A stretch of 58,836 nucleotides of DNA from Halapricum sp. CBA1109 (GTDB lineage Archaea; Halobacteriota; Halobacteria; Halobacteriales; Haloarculaceae): NCBI RefSeq assembly GCF_009741825.1, contig NZ_WPCA01000003.1:1-58836 (forward strand), given 5' to 3'. A model generated the notes under the pieces. That model searched no databases and was not told the origin of the DNA. It saw only the letters and a program-made list of their open reading frames with translations. How positions within the stretch are numbered: position 1 is the first letter of the stretch; each line of letters opens with the position of its first letter. Of this stretch, positions 24,008-42,462 are shown in pieces. Made by a program: the position numbers and the translations under genes.

Positions 24008-26309
24008 TCAGCCACCGAGCGTCTCGTTCCCCGTGAACGGCGGCACCTCGTCCTCGCGGTTCTCGTAGTACACTGCGCTGTACCCGCTCGAGTAGAGGCG
24101 ACTCCCGTCGGTGAACGCGCTCATATTCTTCTCGAAGAAGAAGAACTTGTAGCCGATGGCGAACCCGTCGAGGTCGTCGCTGTACTGTTGGCTGTGCAGA
24201 TACGTGCCGTTCGGCAGGTCGGTCTGGTTCAACTGGATCGGCTTGTACCGCAGTCCGAGTGCGCCCTCGCTCGCGAGCGTCCCCCGGTAGTAGTCGCGTT
24301 GGTTGTCGATACGGACGTCACCGTAGATAGTGTCGTTCGCGCCGAGGTTTCCGGCGACCCAGGCGTGCGTCTGGACGTTACACTGGGTGCAGGCCGCCGC
24401 CCGCAGTCGGAGGTTCGGGTCCTCACTATCCAGCAGCCGTTCTTGACTGACTCGGTTACTCGGAGCGACGTCGCCGGTAACCGTCTCGGAGACGACGCCG
24501 ACGTCAACAAAGAAAGAGTGCGACACCGACCGAGAGTAGCGTCAGACTCACGCTACGGTCCGGGAGCACGGACGCGTCACCGCTGAGTCGGCCGACGATA
24601 CGCGCCGGTATCGCACCCAGTTCCCGCGCGCCGACGACGGCGAACGGGACGGCGAACGTGAAGATTATCATCATCACCCGGGCGACAGCGAACCCGCTAC
24701 CCGAGGGGAGTATCGACCCGACGAACATACTGAAAAACCCGATGGCGACGGCGAGATAGCCGAGTTCGACGGACTCGTCGTGGAACACGACGAGCCGTAG
24801 GGCCGCGGCGCCGATTCCAATCGTCATCAGCAACCCGAGAAGGACGTAGAAGTACTTTCCGACAGTAATCGTCGTCGCGGCGTAGTTTTGCGTGTACGAG
24901 GTGGCCGTACTTCCCGTCGCTTCCACGTAGAGTACGCCCTCGATGGCGGCGATGATCTTGCGCGGCAGGATGACGAACTTCTCGCTGTTTGCAGTGTAGA
25001 TGTACCAACCGAGCGTGAAGACGCTGTAGAAGGCCAGATAGGCGGGCGAGAGGACTGCAGGGATACCGGCGAGCAGGCCGGCTGACTCGCCCCCGTCGCT
25101 TCGGGCCGCGCTGTACCGGTCCGGGAGCATCGACGGGATGTCGGCCCGTACCAGCACCGAGAGGCCGACGAAGGAGACGAACCCGACCAACAGCGAGAAC
25201 AGCACTACGTAGGCGGTGCCGTAGTGTGAGACGACGATACCAGCACCGAACACTAGCATCAGTGCCCGCCGGGCCACTGGCGGGAGGTCGCTGTCGCTGT
25301 ACGCGAGGCCCACCAAGGCGATGAACACGACCGGCGTCGCGGCACGGCCGGCACCGGGATAGAGCACGTAGAAGGGATAGGAAAAGACGAACAGACAGAC
25401 GGCGACCAGCGCCTCGGTCGGCCGGACGAATCGACGGAACACCTCGTAGAGCGTCACGGGCAACAGCGAGACCAGCAAGGGGTTGACGAGGTTCCACTCG
25501 ACACCGATGGGGAGGTCGGTGACGATAGCGTACGTCGGGAACAACACGCCGTTGGCCAGCAGTGACCCGAACGACCCGGCGTTGGGGATCCAGCGCAGTT
25601 GTGCGAGGGTCAGTTCGGGGAGCGGCTGCGTGACCGTGTACACTCCCGGGACGCGCCCGTGGTACAGCAGTGCCAGTGACAGACACCAGATCGCCAGTGG
25701 GTAGTACCACGACTCGTTGCCGAGAGCAGCGGCGAGGATCGGTATCGCAGCTATCCCCAACAAGAGGCCGATCAGGACGATATTGTTCCCCGAGGTGTGA
25801 TAGAACACTGATCCGAGGATGCTGAGTGGGACGAGAAACAGGAGTAACGGCACTATCGGCCGCGTGAGCCACCCACTATCGACGGTGATGGCAAACGACT
25901 GCTTTCGGGCGGTCCAGGTAGCCACCCCACTCACGAGCAGCCACGTCACGAGTATCGCGTTCAGCGAGAGCGGGCTATCGAACCCGACGAGCGGGGACAG
26001 GACGCTCACCACGCCACCGACGGCCATCACGGCGGAGATACTCAGCCCGAACGCGTAACAGACAGTCGAGGTGAGTGACCCGTCGTACCCGAACTGCAAC
26101 AACAGTAGCGTCCCGGGGACGAACGTGAGGAAGACGACACCGACGACTTCACGGACGAGCGGCGGCGCCAGACCAACACCCTCGAGAGCGTCGAGGGCAC
26201 CGATCAGGACGAGCGCTGTCACCGCCAGTGCCAGTACTCGGACGCTCGTCACTCGTATCGAAACGGTGCCGTCGCCTGGCCCGCGGTTCCACTGTAGGGG
26301 GTCGGTCAT
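24008..26309 (-). pseudogene. DUF2206-like multi-pass membrane protein, frameshifted
   Basis: Two minus-strand frames (26309-24504 and 24526-24008) together encode about 765 residues. The first 590 residues hold some 14-16 membrane helices (for example FLTFVPGTLLLLQFGYDGSL, WSLALLYHGRV-like loop, YEVFRRFVRPTEALVAVCLF, AGIVVSHYGTAYVVLFSLLV). The C-terminal soluble part has CTQCNVQTHAWVAGNLGAND and ends VPPFTGNETLGG. The break near 24510 looks like one extra T (CTCTTTCTTTG). The arrangement resembles archaeal DUF2206 and membrane GT-C glycosyltransferase-like proteins. It is the last gene of a six-gene minus-strand operon and is convergent with the flippase gene. Function is not known; glycan polymerisation or transfer is a guess. 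Confidence 0.7.
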
Positions 26310-34000: not shown

Positions 34001-34030
34001 TTGTCCGTCCCCGAACAGTCGCACACCTCG

Positions 34031-34582
34031 ATGCACTCGCTTGCACATATCCTCTGGGGCACCTGCAAACACCTCTCTGCCGGCTACCTCGTCTTCTCGG
34101 TGCTCAGACGCATCAGCGGGGATCCGCCGACGGCCACGGCGACTGCGGCAGTGCTGTTCGGGAGTCTCGCGCCCGACCTGCTGGACAAGCCGCTGGTCGC
34201 TCTCGGCGTTCTCTCGTACGGACGCAGTATGTTTCACTCCCTGCTCGCGATGGGAGCAGTTGTCGGTCTCGTCGCGGTGGTGGGCCGGACACGGGGACGC
34301 ACAGCAGTTCTCTACCCGTTCGCGCTCGGGTACGGATCGCACCTCGCCGTCGACTACGCCGACGAAGTACTCGGTGCATACTGGGGAGCCGACACGGCGT
34401 TTCTCCTCTGGCCGGTGCTGGTGGACTATCCGCTCCCGGTGGCAGTCCCGCTTTTGCCGGTCGACGACGGCACGCTCTTCGGAGCGGGTATGCTGGTGGC
34501 GCTGGCCCTCTGGGTGTCGGACGGACTCGTCGGCCTGACCGACGCGGTCCGCTATCTCCGGAACCGCTATGATATCGGGTGA
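34031..34582 (+). CDS. YdjM-like membrane-bound metal-dependent hydrolase, paralogue of the gene at 54346
   Basis: About 183 residues from the ATG at 34031. Four to five membrane helices carry conserved polar residues: HLSAGYLVFSVL (His), APDLLDKPL (Asp pair), SMFHSLLAMG (His), and YGSHLAVDYADE (His and Asp). This His/Asp pattern matches the YdjM family (PF04307), thought to be integral-membrane metal-dependent hydrolases. The protein at 54346 shares the same order (GYLLYSLGCRALG, LPDLIDKPL, VGHSLVLA, YWSHLLGDV). Here it sits 30 bases before the lasso cyclase gene, so it could serve the lasso cluster, although the paralogue in a glycan cluster suggests a general lipid or glycan role. Confidence 0.7.
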   Translation: MHSLAHILWGTCKHLSAGYLVFSVLRRISGDPPTATATAAVLFGSLAPDLLDKPLVALGVLSYGRSMFHSLLAMGAVVGLVAVVGRTRGRTAVLYPFALGYGSHLAVDYADEVLGAYWGADTAFLLWPVLVDYPLPVAVPLLPVDDGTLFGAGMLVALALWVSDGLVGLTDAVRYLRNRYDIG

Positions 34583-34612: not shown

Positions 34613-36490
34613 ATGAGTGGGATCGTGGCGCTGTTCGACCGCGAGGGAGCGGGGCTGGACTCCGCCGTCTTCGCGGCGATGCACGACCGTCTGGATCACC
34701 GTGGAGCGGACGGCAGCGACCAGTGGACCGACGATCGTATCGCTATCGGCCATCAGCATCTTGATATCACCCCGCAAGCGGCGTACGATGATCAGCCCTG
34801 CGTGACGGACGAACTAGTCGTCGCCGGTGATGTCCGAATCGACAACCGGCCGGAACTGTTCGACGCACTCCCGGCCCTCAACGACAGCGCCCGTACGCCG
34901 GACAGTCAAGTCGTCACTGCGGCTTACCGCGAGTGGGGGACTGACTGTGTCGACCATCTCGTCGGCGCGTACGCGTTCGTCGTGTGGGATCGGACCGAGA
35001 GGACGTTGTTCTGTGCCCGCGACCCTCTCGGCGTTCGGCCTCTGTATTACTATCAGTCGCCGGGTCTCGTCGCCGTCGCGTCCGAAAAGAAAGCACTGCT
35101 GGCTCTACCGTCCGTCCCGCAGACCGTCGACGACCGCCGTGTCGGGAGCTTTCTGGTCGACAGCTACGAGAACCGCTCGCGTTCGTTCTTCGAGGCGATA
35201 CGCCGTCTCCCGCCGGCACACACGATGACTGTCGAGGAGGGCAGCGTCGACCGCCGCCGGTACTGGGACCTCGACCCGAACAGGACCGTCTCCCTCGCCT
35301 CGGATGCGGCGTACGAACGCCGGTTCCGAGCACTGTTCGAACGGGCGGTGAGCAGCCGGCTCCGGGCCGACGAGCCCGTCGGCGCTGATCTCAGTGGCGG
35401 CATCGACTCCTCGTCGATCACGGTGATGGCCCGTGACTGCCTCGAGGACAGCCAGCCCTTGCACACGTTTTCGCATCTCTTCGACGATGCGCCGTCGAGT
35501 GACGAGCGGGAGTTCATCGAGGCCGTCACCGATATCGACGGCATCGAACCCCACTACCTCCATCACGGGGACGCCGGGATATTCGGGGACGAGGACCGAC
35601 TCCGGACGGTGTTCGACCAACCCCCGCACAACACGATGCACTTCGCCGAGTGTGCCCGCGCCCGGCGGGCCCGCGAGGAGGGTGTCGGCGTCGTGTTGAG
35701 CGGTGCTCTCGGCGATAGCACTATCGGGTACGGACTCGGCCTCCTCCCGGAGTTACTCTGGACTGGCCGTTGGCGACACCTCTACGGCGAACTGCAGGCG
35801 ATGGGGGAGGTTCTCGACGCCTCCCCGAACTACCTGTTCGTCCAGTATGTCCTCTCGGAACTGGTGCCGCCACGGCTGTCGCGGTGGCGGCGACGATTCG
35901 ACGGCGATCCGATCGGACCGATGGCTGCGAACCCCACGCTGTCGCCGTCGTTCGTCGACCGTATCGCTCTGGCTGACCGCTATACGGATCCCGACGCACG
36001 GGGTGCGACGTTCACGCCACGGTCCCGACGCCGCCAGCGACGGTCGATAATAACCGGCAAAAACGCCGTGAACTTCGAGGCACTCGACCTGACGTTCGCC
36101 GGGACTGGTGTCACACCTCGATACCCGTTCGCGGACACGCGACTGATCGAGTTCTCGCTGGCGATACCTCCCACCCAGCAGTTACGCGACGGGTGGACTC
36201 GGTCCATCGGTCGCCGGGCGCTGTCCGATCTCCTCCCCGAGGAGGTACAGCGGCGGCCGTGGAAGACGTTCCAGAGCGAGGCGTTCTGGAACGCGCTGGC
36301 CCGGTCCGACGACTGTCTAGATTCCTTGGCCGCCGACCTAGGGTCGGTCGGTCGATACCTCGACGCCGACGCCGTCGGGGCGGCCTACGAGCGATTTCGG
36401 GAGACACCGAGCCCCCGGGACGCCCGTGCGCTGTGGCGGGCGCTGTCGCTCTCCGTCTGGCTAGAAACGACCGGGCGTAACCGCCCGTGA
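34613..36490 (+). CDS. Lasso-peptide cyclase (asparagine-synthetase-like, C-type protein)
   Basis: 625 residues from the ATG at 34613. The N-terminal domain has the class II glutaminase fold (LDHRGADGSDQW, VVAGDVRIDNRPELF) but residue 2 is Ser, not the Cys that cleaves glutamine, as in lasso cyclases. The ATP-pyrophosphatase domain has an intact PP-loop, SGGIDSSS (residues 261-268), and a second loop SGALGDSTIGYG (363-374), which replaces the G-x-G-G-D-E motif of asparagine synthetase and resembles the lasso-cyclase group. In lasso systems this enzyme adenylates the ring Asp/Glu side chain and joins it to the new N-terminus. A precursor gene follows 154 bases downstream. A role as an ordinary asparagine synthetase is unlikely given Ser2. 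Confidence 0.85.
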   Translation: MSGIVALFDREGAGLDSAVFAAMHDRLDHRGADGSDQWTDDRIAIGHQHLDITPQAAYDDQPCVTDELVVAGDVRIDNRPELFDALPALNDSARTPDSQVVTAAYREWGTDCVDHLVGAYAFVVWDRTERTLFCARDPLGVRPLYYYQSPGLVAVASEKKALLALPSVPQTVDDRRVGSFLVDSYENRSRSFFEAIRRLPPAHTMTVEEGSVDRRRYWDLDPNRTVSLASDAAYERRFRALFERAVSSRLRADEPVGADLSGGIDSSSITVMARDCLEDSQPLHTFSHLFDDAPSSDEREFIEAVTDIDGIEPHYLHHGDAGIFGDEDRLRTVFDQPPHNTMHFAECARARRAREEGVGVVLSGALGDSTIGYGLGLLPELLWTGRWRHLYGELQAMGEVLDASPNYLFVQYVLSELVPPRLSRWRRRFDGDPIGPMAANPTLSPSFVDRIALADRYTDPDARGATFTPRSRRRQRRSIITGKNAVNFEALDLTFAGTGVTPRYPFADTRLIEFSLAIPPTQQLRDGWTRSIGRRALSDLLPEEVQRRPWKTFQSEAFWNALARSDDCLDSLAADLGSVGRYLDADAVGAAYERFRETPSPRDARALWRALSLSVWLETTGRNRP

Positions 36491-36644
36491 TCGACCGTTC
36501 CCGTGGGGCACGAAGTGTGAGCAAAAGTGACCGAACCGGGCGTCATCACCGGATACCGCCGTCACTTCGACGGATTCCTGCCGCGAATATTCGGTTGAGT
36601 GACTACTTTTTTGTACCTAGCCCAACTTCTATTCAGTGGCAACT

Positions 36645-36788
36645 ATGCCATCCAAAACGTACGACACGCCGGAAGTAACCGAGTACGGGTCCGTCGAGAC
36701 GCTCACTCTCGAGGACAAGATCGGGAGCGCGACCGACGTCTACTCCGAGGGGACCCCACTCGACGGATCGATCGTTCCCGATTCCTGA
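36645..36788 (+). CDS. Lasso-peptide precursor
   Basis: 47 residues, too short for usual gene finders. The leader has the lasso recognition pattern Y-x-x-P-x-(V/L)-x-x-x-G-x4-L-T: Tyr6, Pro9, Val11, Gly15, Leu20 and Thr21 all match (YDTPEVTEYGSVETLT). The C-terminal core is less clear. If cut before Gly27, the ring would join Gly27 to Glu35 (position 9) and the tail would have 12 residues. If cut two residues after Thr21, as in the standard Thr(-2) rule, the core starts at Glu23 and the ring acceptor would be Asp31, again position 9. The last two residues are Asp-Ser, as in the kinase-modified lasso peptide paeninodin. No Cys is present. The gene lies between the cyclase gene and the convergent kinase gene. 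Confidence 0.8.
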   Translation: MPSKTYDTPEVTEYGSVETLTLEDKIGSATDVYSEGTPLDGSIVPDS

Positions 36789-36870: not shown

Positions 36871-37817
36871 TTATGATCGTTGATCCCCCTCGAAGCGGCT
36901 GCTGTCGACGACAGCAGCGACGAGCGACGGGAGGACGTCGTGGTCGCTCGGACGCTGGAGGACGCCGAACGACGTTCGCTCGACGACGGCCGCACACTGT
37001 CTGAAGTGGTCGCCGGAGGCGTCGGTGTCCGAGAGCATTCCCTGCGTGTACGTTTGATCGACCAACTGGAACAGCCGCTCTTTCTCCGGGAGGTCCTCGA
37101 TAACGAGACGTTCCCCCTGCCGGAGGACGTAGCAGCCCCCTATTGGAACAGGATCCGGCTGTTCATCGAACACGAGATACCGTTTGTCGGAGCCGCCGTC
37201 GTCCTCGCACTGGTGGGTCCTCTCGATACCGAGCGCCTCGACGGCGTCGGGTCTGAGACGCATCTCCGGGACGCCCGGGTCGACCACGGGCGTCTCGTCC
37301 TCGAACCGGATGCTGACGATATCGTCCTCGAGGATCGGATACCCGCGGGTACGGAAGGCGGCCGCTGTCGTCGACTTCCCGACGCCCCGCGGACCGAGAA
37401 ACACCACGGCTTCCCCGTCGACCACGACGGCGCTGGCGTGTAAAACGAGGCGGCCACGCTGGTGGAGCACGACCCCCAGCATCTCGTTTTCGAACAGTCG
37501 CCGGACCAGCTTCGTCCCGACGACGTCCGTCGATACCGGGTCGAAGACGATACGATCCCCACCCGTTACCAGAAAGGAGCCGATGGTGTCGTAACTGAGC
37601 CGAACGTGCCCGGGCGTCGCCTGTACACGACGGATCCCGTGGCTCTCGACGGACTCGGGCACCGGTTCGACTGTCCCGCGTTCGATGACGACGTCCGCTT
37701 CGCCGGCGTCTCCCGCGATCGGAAGTTCCGGGAGTTCGAACGCCGACTGCACTGTCAGTCCGTAGGTTCGGTAGGTCTGTGAGCAGGTACGGCCGTCAGT
37801 CGAGTCGATGGGAGTCG

Positions 37818-37821
<4 letters not shown>
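36871..37821 (-). CDS. HPr-kinase-like protein, predicted lasso-peptide Ser kinase
   Basis: 316 residues from the ATG at 37821, overlapping the stop of the ABC gene by 4 bases. The HprK-type core is intact: LVLHASAVVVDGEAVVFLGP, the Walker A loop GPRGVGKST (143-151), YPILEDDIVS (164-171, the paired Asp), and an RYLVFDEQPDPVPIG strand. The N-terminal 110 residues form a separate domain (YGLTVQSAFELPELP). In lasso clusters such kinases phosphorylate the side chain of the C-terminal Ser of the precursor; the precursor here ends in Ser. It is convergent with the precursor gene, 83 bases apart. Archaea lack the sugar phosphotransferase HPr/HprK control, so that role is unlikely. Confidence 0.8.
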
Positions 37822-39640
<1,819 letters not shown>

Positions 39641-39644
<4 letters not shown>

Positions 39645-40090
39645 CTGTCGGCCACGGTGTCTAACGGCGGCAGGGGTTCGTACTGGTCGAGGTCGTCTAG
39701 GTAGCCGAGGACGACGTCACCGTCGGCCTCGATCCAGCTATGTGCTCGGACCCCTTCCCCACGCTCTTTTCGGACACCGATACGATGTTCGGTGTCGTAC
39801 CCGTAGGCCGTAAACAGCGTCTCCGCCGCCAGCGACCGGACGAGACAGGTGCGCTCGCCCGGAACGTGACGGTCAGCCGTATCGACAGCCCACGCTATTT
39901 GTGCCGCCGGGGGCCGGGCCGAGAGCACCCGACGTGCCGAGGTGCCAGTGCGAACGAGTACTGACCTGGACCGGTCGAACGATATCGCGAACACTCCCAC
40001 CCACGCGACCAGCAGTGCTGTCGAGGCGAGGAGGAGGCGGGCCTGCTGGCCACGCGAACACGACCTGAAGGCACTGAGCTTCCCCATCAC
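39641..40090 (-). CDS. Lasso-peptide leader peptidase (B2, transglutaminase-like, PF13471)
   Basis: 149 residues from the ATG at 40090. After a membrane-like helix (residues 17-37), the catalytic region has Cys82 in ERTCLVRSLAAETLFTAYGY and His117 in GVRAHSWIEADG, with Asp124 or a neighbouring acid (DDLDQYEP) as the third residue. The C-x-x-R-S-L-A pattern is the hallmark of lasso B2 proteins. The enzyme cuts the leader from the precursor once the recognition element has bound it. Both ends overlap the neighbouring genes by 4 bases (40087-40090 and 39641-39644), so it is translationally coupled to the PqqD-type gene and the exporter gene. Very short for the family, as is normal for split B proteins. 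Confidence 0.88.
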
Positions 40091-40395
40091 TCACCCTGTT
40101 CGTCGACGACTTCGGCGAGTCCGTTCTCGAGCAACTCCGAGAGCAACGACTCGACGTCCCCACGACACTCCGCTCGGCTAACGTCGTACTCGTCGCTGAT
40201 CCGGTCGGCGATGGTGCTAACCGACGACGGCGACTGGATGCACTCCCAGATGTCCGTCCCAACCTCGTTGAACCCGAAGTACGTCCCCGACCCGGTGTGG
40301 AGGACCACCGACTCGCCGTCGAGCGTCGTTGACAACGCCTGCTCGTCGGCGACCACCCTATCTGTGTCGCTGAGCCCCTGCATTTGTCGTTCCAT
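40087..40395 (-). CDS. PqqD-type RiPP recognition element (lasso B1)
   Basis: About 102 residues from the ATG at 40395; the ATG at 40383 (MQGLSDTDR) sits at a better distance from the TATA element and may be the true start. The PqqD fold is clear: ALSTTLDGESVVLHTGSGTY, FGFNEVGTDIWECI, then helices SVSTIADRISDEYDVSRAEC and VESLLSELLENGLAEVV. Such RREs bind the leader at the Y-x-x-P stretch and hand the precursor to the B2 peptidase. It is the first gene of the B1-B2-exporter-kinase operon. It could serve another RiPP pathway, but a lasso assignment follows from the neighbours. Confidence 0.88.
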   Translation of the reverse strand: MERQMQGLSDTDRVVADEQALSTTLDGESVVLHTGSGTYFGFNEVGTDIWECIQSPSSVSTIADRISDEYDVSRAECRGDVESLLSELLENGLAEVVDEQGE

Positions 40396-40407
40396 CACTC
40401 TAGACGA

Positions 40408-40484: not shown

Positions 40485-40651
40485 ATGAACGAACGAAACG
40501 TTCCACAGCGTGAGCAGCGTGTCGTGTGGACTCCGGAGGGCGGACGCCGTCCCGACGATTGATGAGGCGATACACGCACCCTCGGGGCCATTTCTACAGC
40601 TACTTAACCGCCCTCACGCCCGGTTAAGTCACTCCGGGCACAATATTGAGT

Positions 40652-42462
40652 ATGAGTTCACTTCCCCCTGAGAGTGGCGCGTCCCCCCTCGACCCGGACG
40701 ACTACGAGACCCTCTCGCCGCGGGTACTGGTCGTCGGGGCCGGGGCCGCGGGCGCACGGGCCGCCATCGAACTGGCCGAACAGGGCGTCGACCCCTCGGA
40801 GCTGTTGGTCATCGGCAAACGCGGACACGGTGACGCCCACACGACGTGGGCGCGGGGCGGCATCAACGGCGCACTGGGCACCCACGACCCGGAGGACGAC
40901 TGGACGGTCCACGCGGCGGACACGCTCAACGAGGGGCATCACATCAACGACCCCGACCTCGTCGAGACGGTGACCAAGCAGATGCCCGACCGACTCCGGG
41001 AACTCGACGAGTGGGGGATGCCGTACAGTCGGACCGAAGACGGCGACATCGACCAGCGGTACTTCGGCGCCCAGTCGTTTCGTCGGACCGCCTTCGCGGG
41101 CGACCACACGGGCGAGTCGCTTTTGGACACGCTCGTCGACCGCGCCCAGTCGCTGTCGATTCCGTACCGCGAGAACCTCTACGTGACCCGCCTTCTCACC
41201 GAGGACGGGCGCGTCCACGGGGCCGTCGGCGTCGACCTCGACACCGGCGAGCCGGTACGCGTCGCCGCCGACGTGGTCGTGTTGGCCGCCGGCGGCTACA
41301 CGAGCCTCTACGAACGGCACTCCTCCCGGGACGACGAGAACACCGCCGACGGTCCCGGGCTAGCCTATCAGGCCGGCGCACGGCTGATGGACGTCGAGTT
41401 CGTCCAGTTCCACCCGACCGGGATGGTCGGCGACCGCTACGGCGAGGAGTGGGACGGTCGCCTCGTCACCGAGGCCGTCCGCGGCGAGGGCGCCGGCTCT
41501 ACACCGCCGGCGAGGACGGCGAACTCGGCGAGCGGTTCATGGAGCGGTACTCGCCCGATCAGATGGAACTGGACGCCCGCGACGTGGTCGCACGCGCTAT
41601 CGCGCGAGAGGTTTCGGAGGGCCGCGGGACCGAGAACGGCGGCGTCTACCTCGACATCTCTCATCGGGACCGGTCGTTCCTCGAAGAGCGCCTCCCGCGG
41701 ATGGTCGAGCGGTTCGACGAGTTGGGCGTCGACATGGCCGAGCAACCGGTCGAAGTCGCCCCGACCGCCCACTACGGGATGGGCGGCGTCGTGGTCGACG
41801 AACACGGCGAGACGGACGTGCGGAACCTCTACGCCATCGGCGAGACGATGGCCGGGGTCCACGGCGCGAACCGTCTCGGGGGCAACTCCCTCGCCGAGAC
41901 TGTCGCCTTCGGTAAGGTGACGGGTGCGGCTGTCGCGGACCGCCTCGCGGACGGTCCGGGCGCCGACGCCGACACCGTCGACCGCCTCGCCGGCCAGTCC
42001 CTCGCTGACACGATGGCCGTGGCGAACAGCGACGGCACGCACGACCCCGTCGCGTTGTTCGCGGAACTCAGAGCCGTGCTGTGGGACCACGCCGGGCTGC
42101 TCCGGGAGGAGTCCTCGCTGCAAACGGGTCTGGAACGGGTCGCGTCGATACGGGACCGGGCGGCCGACGTCGCCGTCGGTGGCCCCACTAGCGAGTCCTT
42201 CGAGTTCGCGATGAACCTCGGGTTCGCCCTCGACGTGGCCGAAGCGATACTCCGCGGCGCCCGAAAACGGACCGAGTCCCGCGGCGCACACGCCAGAACG
42301 GACGCCACGGAGACGGACCCGTCGTGGCGGCGGAACATCGTCGTCGAGCGGGACAGCGTCGGCGGGATGGCGCTCTCGACGCGGCCCGTCGACGACCCGA
42401 GCTCCGAGGTCCAACAGGCGCTCGACGCCGGCTACGAACTCGACTACCATCAGCTAGAGTAA
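40652..42462 (+). pseudogene. FAD-dependent dehydrogenase of the aspartate oxidase/fumarate reductase family, frameshifted
   Basis: Two frames (40652 to about 41495, then about 41495 to 42462) encode one protein of about 604 residues. Landmarks: dinucleotide loop VLVVGAGAAGARAAIELAEQ, ARGGINGALGTHDPEDDW, FRRTAFAGDHTGESLLDTL, FHPTGMVGDRYG, then in the second frame RERMAR-like catalytic region ERFMERYSPDQMELDARDVV, HYGMGGVVVD, and VHGANRLGGNSLAETVAFG (FAD). A single base lost near 41495 joins them. Family members oxidise aspartate, succinate or reduce fumarate; NadB and SdhA are the nearest. No NadA, NadC or Sdh partner is nearby. Confidence 0.85.

Follow-up and report, generated by a model that had tools for sequence, protein, structure and literature searches.

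The 58,836-nt stretch of Halapricum sp. CBA1109 DNA analyzed here (the window) contains a complete haloarchaeal lasso-type gene set, comprising a cyclase (C), an HprK-like kinase, an ABC exporter, a B2 protease, and a B1/RRE protein, with a 47-residue precursor gene lying between the cyclase and the kinase (Table 1). The combination of a precursor, B1, B2, and an Asn-synthetase-like cyclase that marks lasso clusters is thus present, with the cyclase and B2 over the cut-offs of their families and B1 belonging to the PqqD type. The cyclase contains an SGGIDSS loop and has Ser rather than Cys as residue 2. The kinase, whose presence is characteristic of paeninodin-type clusters, resembles HprK distantly, with family matches below curated cut-offs and a match to a solved HprK structure at E 4e-4; its homologues are present in nearly all related clusters. 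No ATP-grasp family match, as would be expected for a graspetide cluster, was obtained among the cluster proteins scanned. A YdjM-family hydrolase also adjoins several of the related clusters, which may reflect immunity, trimming, or chance coincidence. Elsewhere in the window, at 40646-42462 (+), a gene for a flavoprotein resembling a succinate dehydrogenase/L-aspartate oxidase subunit is split over two frames near 41490, by either a frameshift or an assembly error.

Table 1. Positions of the precursor, its segments, and the neighboring genes in the window
Feature	Position	Strand	Basis or remark
YdjM-family membrane metal-dependent hydrolase	34001-34582	+	PF04307; homologues at L053, L055, L057
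Lasso-type macrolactam cyclase C, Asn-synthetase fold	34613-36490	+	NF033535, 536 bits (cut-off 525)
Possible TATA-like box 5' of the precursor	36607-36619	+	Reading of the sequence only; weak
Precursor gene (47 aa and stop)	36645-36788	+	Homology, NF033521, leader pattern
Leader, Met1-Leu22	36645-36710	+	Y6, P9, V11, G15; Thr21 at -2
Spacer, Glu23-Asp24	36711-36716	+	Length varies among relatives
Proposed ring segment, Lys25-Ile-Gly-Ser-Ala-Thr-Asp31 (K-x-G-x-x-x-D)	36717-36737	+	Lys and Asp invariant; +6 spacing fixed and enriched
C-terminal tail, with conserved G-S-[IV] (Ser42, 36768-36770) and C-terminal Ser47	36738-36785	+	G-S in 31 of 35 anchored relatives
HprK-like kinase, P-loop GPRGVGKS	36871-37821	-	Hpr_kinase_C and TIGR04352 both matched weakly, under cut-off
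MsbA-like ABC exporter	37818-39644	-	Family matches
B2 leader peptidase, Cys82 and His117	39641-40090	-	NF033537, 87.5 bits (cut-off 33)
B1 leader-binding protein (PqqD/RRE)	40087-40398	-	PF05402; resembles solved TbiB1 (5v1u, 9x90)

The 47-residue ORF, which translates to MPSKTYDTPEVTEYGSVETLTLEDKIGSATDVYSEGTPLDGSIVPDS, is a real gene and encodes a lasso-type precursor; an alternative GTG start 9 bases upstream would give 50 residues. A preliminary description of this DNA had claimed a leader match, and three observations bear it out: the ORF scores 19.9 bits against a cut-off of 19 for NF033521, the NCBIfam lasso-leader domain; homologous precursors of 37-66% identity adjoin homologous cyclases in other haloarchaea; and the ORF contains the rare leader pattern Y-x2-P-x-[LIVM]-x3-G-x5-T. 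This pattern has two matches in the whole window, compared with 0.2 expected by chance in first-order random sequence, the second match being a 107-residue reading frame without an adjoining cyclase. The statement that the ORF falls below common gene-finder limits was too strong, as its 47 codons exceed the lower limit of Prodigal, which is about 30 codons. The orthologous precursor of Halopiger xanaduensis pHALXA01 (L365, about 25641-25799) has no CDS entry in the PLSDB table, a listing with known gaps, and the neighboring kinase region appears there as two hypothetical proteins.

Lasso leaders typically display YxxPx[LIV] at positions -17 to -12 and Thr, or rarely Ile, at -2, and these elements are found in the Halapricum leader as Y6, P9, V11, and T21. 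The spacing between Tyr and Thr is identical across the whole precursor family and is the same as in BsfA, in which the leader Tyr is at -17 (PMC10368454). Because of this equality in spacing, a cut after Leu22, which places Thr21 at -2, is well supported, and we consider it probable.

To place the core, the precursor was compared with its haloarchaeal relatives. B2 is over cut-off in 31 of 392 Halobacteria genomes, and a precursor profile recovers largely the same genomes. Around most of the B2-bearing loci and three further cyclase loci, 20 kb were read; 22 related precursors entered a first alignment, and family-level searches raised the number of distinct haloarchaeal members to 33. An anchored alignment has 35 rows, two of them from other clusters. 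Across the family, Y6, P9, G15, T21, K25, and D31 vary hardly or not at all. The residues at position 1, counted from Thr(-2), are Gln, Asn, Thr, Glu, Ser, Lys, Arg, Gly, or Ala.

The preliminary description regarded the register of the core as ambiguous, an assessment that we share, and its placement of the two candidate acids is correct: counted from Gly27, Glu35 falls at position 9, as does Asp31 when counted from Glu23. It also proposed an alignment of orthologues as the means to decide between them, and in that alignment the Gly27 register fails, Asp31 is kept as the acceptor, and the distance from Thr to Asp is not fixed. A core that begins at Gly27 and closes on Glu35 would have the usual first residue of a lasso peptide, and 32 of the 35 anchored rows keep Gly27. 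The position of Glu35, however, is acidic in only 20 of the 35 rows and is Ser, Gly, Lys, or Asn in others; moreover, Thr21 would fall at -6, and the invariant Asp31 would be left at position 5 without a role. This register was rejected as highly improbable. Asp31 is very likely the acceptor.

With Asp31 as the acceptor, the reading that follows ordinary lasso chemistry is a cut after Leu22 and closure of a nine-residue ring from the Glu23 α-amine to Asp31. For the Halapricum precursor, this ring would obey all known rules, with Thr at -2, Tyr at -17, and an acid at position 9 within the range of 7-9. Nor is a Glu start as odd as the preliminary description, which called it new to the class, supposed: the relatives start with nine different residues, and the ring amine of metanodin is supplied by Asn at position 1, as supported by mass spectrometry (PMC12670498). 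The Thr(-2) register thus retains its acceptor, but not its ring size. In Thr(-2) numbering, Asp is at position 9 in only about 14 of the 33 members, including the Halapricum precursor, and at 10, 11, 12, or 13 in the remaining ~19; in G079 and Halosimplex salinum, for example, it is at 12 or 13, which leaves no room for a 7-9 ring from Thr(-2). Ordinary chemistry would demand rings of 10-13 residues in the relatives, and of 14 in L247, whereas reported lasso rings have 7-9 residues (PMC9266682) and a change of one residue in the ring is poorly tolerated, strongly lowering yield (PMC13352647). It would further require single cyclases to make two ring sizes, as in G116, G297, and G493 a single family cyclase is accompanied by two precursors, one with Asp at 10 and the other with Asp at 11; G116 and G297 were checked and have a single B2 each. 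Finally, it gives no reason for an invariant Lys. We regard ordinary closure from Glu23, with larger rings in the relatives, as rather unlikely.

The sole feature of the core that never moves was overlooked in the preliminary description: Lys25 lies six residues before Asp31. Each of the 33 haloarchaeal members has a Lys at precisely Asp-6; they are related by descent, so that counts among them are not independent. The spacer between Thr and Lys varies in length, such that Lys occupies core position 3, 4, 5, 6, or 7.

A constant Lys-Asp distance could also arise if the cut floats, or if an aminopeptidase trims the core, such that Asp24 (eight-residue ring) or Lys25 (seven-residue ring) becomes residue 1 and its α-amine closes the ring. 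The ring would then be constant and of allowed size; the residue preceding Lys is nearly fixed as Asn, Asp, or Glu in the haloarchaeal members, and some members with long spacers have T-N-K, which places Thr at -2 from Lys. Against a moving cut, the Tyr-Thr spacing is fixed and Glu or Gln is retained at -1 as in canonical relatives, and the bacterial precursors with the same Lys-Asp spacing (see below) show no conservation at the position preceding Lys, with Thr absent from -2 relative to Lys in most. In addition, G140 and G365 each have one B2, yet contain both Lys-Asp family precursors and precursors with Gly1 and Asp8; one cut rule must therefore serve both types. Trimming would need a protease, and none is evident in the cluster, the YdjM-like hydrolase left aside. 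We consider a floating or trimmed N terminus unlikely.

The reading that we prefer, with a probability that we put at about even, is a cut after Thr-Leu followed by formation of an isopeptide bond between the Lys25 side chain and Asp31. The chance that Lys25 is the amine donor is likewise judged to be about equal to the chance that it is not. The sequences themselves display the gene set, the leader, a Lys25 and an Asp31 that never change, and a spacer of varying length; the chemistry is our reading of them. A Lys-closed ring accounts for the identity of the Lys, the fixed Lys-Asp distance, and the variable spacer, as well as for one B2 serving both precursor types in G140 and G365. The Lys25-Asp31 ring would have 26 atoms (Lys contributing 7, five residues 15, and Asp 4), the same number as a Gly1-Glu8 ring, compared with 25 or 28 atoms for α-amine rings to Asp of eight or nine residues, respectively. 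Against it, Asp is also at position 9 in the Halapricum precursor and about 13 relatives, so ordinary chemistry fits these members, and the near-fixed Asn, Asp, or Glu before Lys in haloarchaea is left unexplained. We know of no lasso cyclase that uses a side-chain amine.

In the pathway that we propose, B1 would bind the YxxPxV leader, the HprK-like kinase would probably phosphorylate Ser42 or Ser47 near the C terminus, and B2 would cleave the Leu22-Glu23 bond, Thr21 being the residue at -2. Asp31 would be activated by the cyclase as an AMP ester, which the Lys25 side-chain amine would attack, yielding an isopeptide ring with a free N-terminal tail, Glu23-Asp24, and the ABC protein would export the product. 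In paeninodin-type lasso peptides the C-terminal Ser is the one phosphorylated; Ser47 ends the Halapricum precursor, but the conserved Ser of most relatives is that of the internal G-S. The G-S-[IV] conserved close to the C terminus suggests Ser42 as the kinase target, if the enzyme acts like PadeK and BsfK.

The Lys-Asp spacing also occurs beyond haloarchaea. Cyclases from cyanobacteria, Acidobacteria, Chloroflexi, and Rokubacteria that form a clade of their own are accompanied by precursors in which Lys again lies six residues before Asp. Their motif is KxxGxxD rather than the archaeal KxGxxxD, and counting from Thr places their Asp at 9-14. Among 121 cyclase-linked precursors, selected by leader and cyclase only, the K-to-D +6 spacing is found in 48, compared with 7.3 in shuffles, and in bacteria alone it is found in 14 as opposed to 3.0. 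When the set is reduced and precursors without an acid at 7-9 are considered, 22 of 29 have Lys at Asp-6 (1.3 expected). The trait tracks cyclase clades, being found in 16 of 16 members of the haloarchaeal clade and 10 of 11 of the bacterial clade; L088 is inside the latter but without the motif. Position 1 differs as well: Gly or Ala is found there in 33 of 54 canonical relatives (acid at 7-9), and Gly, Ala, Ser, or Cys in 35 of these 54; in the Lys group, which favors Gln, only 4 of 34 precursors have one of these four residues there. A comparison of the cyclases, in which L053_15526 and L059_4280 were treated as canonical type-2 enzymes, revealed no convincing residue that marks both Lys clades.

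For a held-out test, the prediction was fixed beforehand, and 37 precursors were then obtained at further cyclase loci in Chloroflexi, Acidobacteria, and the phylum to which G523 belongs; with the spurious frame L353 excluded, six lack an acid at 7-9. Lys is at Asp-6 in three of these six, compared with about 0.25 expected. Two others, L336 and L349, turn ordinary when -2 is assigned to a second Thr, and neither reading fits L307 (RGAGRTPGAGD), which has Arg at Asp-6. The result supports the rule of Lys at Asp-6, though not cleanly. Also observed was a K-[GA]-G-x-x-x-D motif in bacterial precursors at L307, L312, L316, L347, L350, L351, and L354, five of them with Asp at 8 and two with Asp at 10, Lys again lying six residues before; the KGGxxxD form with Asp at 8 or 10 occurs among the held-out precursors. 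That the haloarchaeal cyclase branch and, separately, that of the cyanobacteria, Acidobacteria, Chloroflexi, and Rokubacteria form the ring through a Lys side chain at Asp-6, leaving a free N-terminal tail, is a tentative generalization to which we assign slightly less than an even chance.

Among known systems, the Halapricum cluster is similar to the paeninodin type (PadeA/PadeK and BsfA/BsfK), which shares split B1 and B2 proteins, the cyclase, an HprK-like kinase, an ABC exporter, and a YxxPxL leader with Tyr at -17. In paeninodin-type precursors, residue 1 (Ala or Gly) closes an eight- or nine-residue ring, whereas the Halapricum family has a variable spacer and a fixed Lys-Asp pair; BsfA also has Ile rather than Thr at -2, and the kinase match to HprK is, as noted, distant. 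Type-2 haloarchaeal precursors at L059:6412 (+), L053:15338 (-), and L075:9238 (-) have the same leader, and type-2 precursors share a single B2 with the Lys-Asp family in G140 and G365. They differ in having Gly after Thr-x, an acid at 8 (GNHFSAVD, GRHFSRVD, and GTGGGDFD), no Lys at Asp-6, and cyclases outside the Lys clade, and they are apparently canonical archaeal lasso peptides. Like the Halapricum precursor, metanodin keeps Thr(-2) with a residue 1 outside Gly, Ala, Ser, and Cys, but its ring amine is that of the N-terminal Asn (PMC12670498). Linear polyphosphorylated peptide (LPP) clusters share the RRE, the HprK-like kinase, and the MsbA-like exporter; they have a signal-peptidase-like protease and no macrolactam cyclase, whereas the Halapricum cluster has both C, at 34613-36490, and B2 (PMC13381572). 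Haloarchaeal clusters that combine B1, B2, and an HprK-like kinase, and in most cases an ABC exporter, but have no cyclase within 20 kb were also encountered (L060, L062, L063, L064, L051, and L054); their precursors are very short, for example MKEYETPSVETYGTVEEKTNWWDHDDGYGKWS, with six in tandem in L051, and they may encode linear kinase-modified RiPPs similar to LPPs but with B2. In L190 and L196 (G425), a lasso-type leader precedes extended stretches of Gly (RGGGGG...GPIGYGQ) and similar cores rich in Gly, Lys, and Arg, with no cyclase within the stretch examined. Graspetides contain Lys-Asp/Glu omega-amides, the same type of bond as the proposed Lys-to-Asp amide, formed there by ATP-grasp ligases rather than by an Asn-synthetase-like lasso cyclase.

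Genome-mining studies have already catalogued lasso-type clusters in archaea, haloarchaea included (PMC12144867, PMC10093198). A search of papers largely outside the subscription journals returned neither a characterized archaeal lasso product nor a report of a lysine-closed lasso ring. The Halapricum gene cluster itself is a further example of a known cluster type, and its novelty rests on the lysine ring, if this is right. Rules for lasso genome mining assume that residue 1 follows Thr(-2) and that an acid is found at 7-9. A ring set by lysine would, if true, break the rule that the lasso ring begins at residue 1, explain precursors that mining rules are unable to place, and represent a second kind of substrate for the lasso cyclase. 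It would also make possible engineered lassos with a free N-terminal arm.
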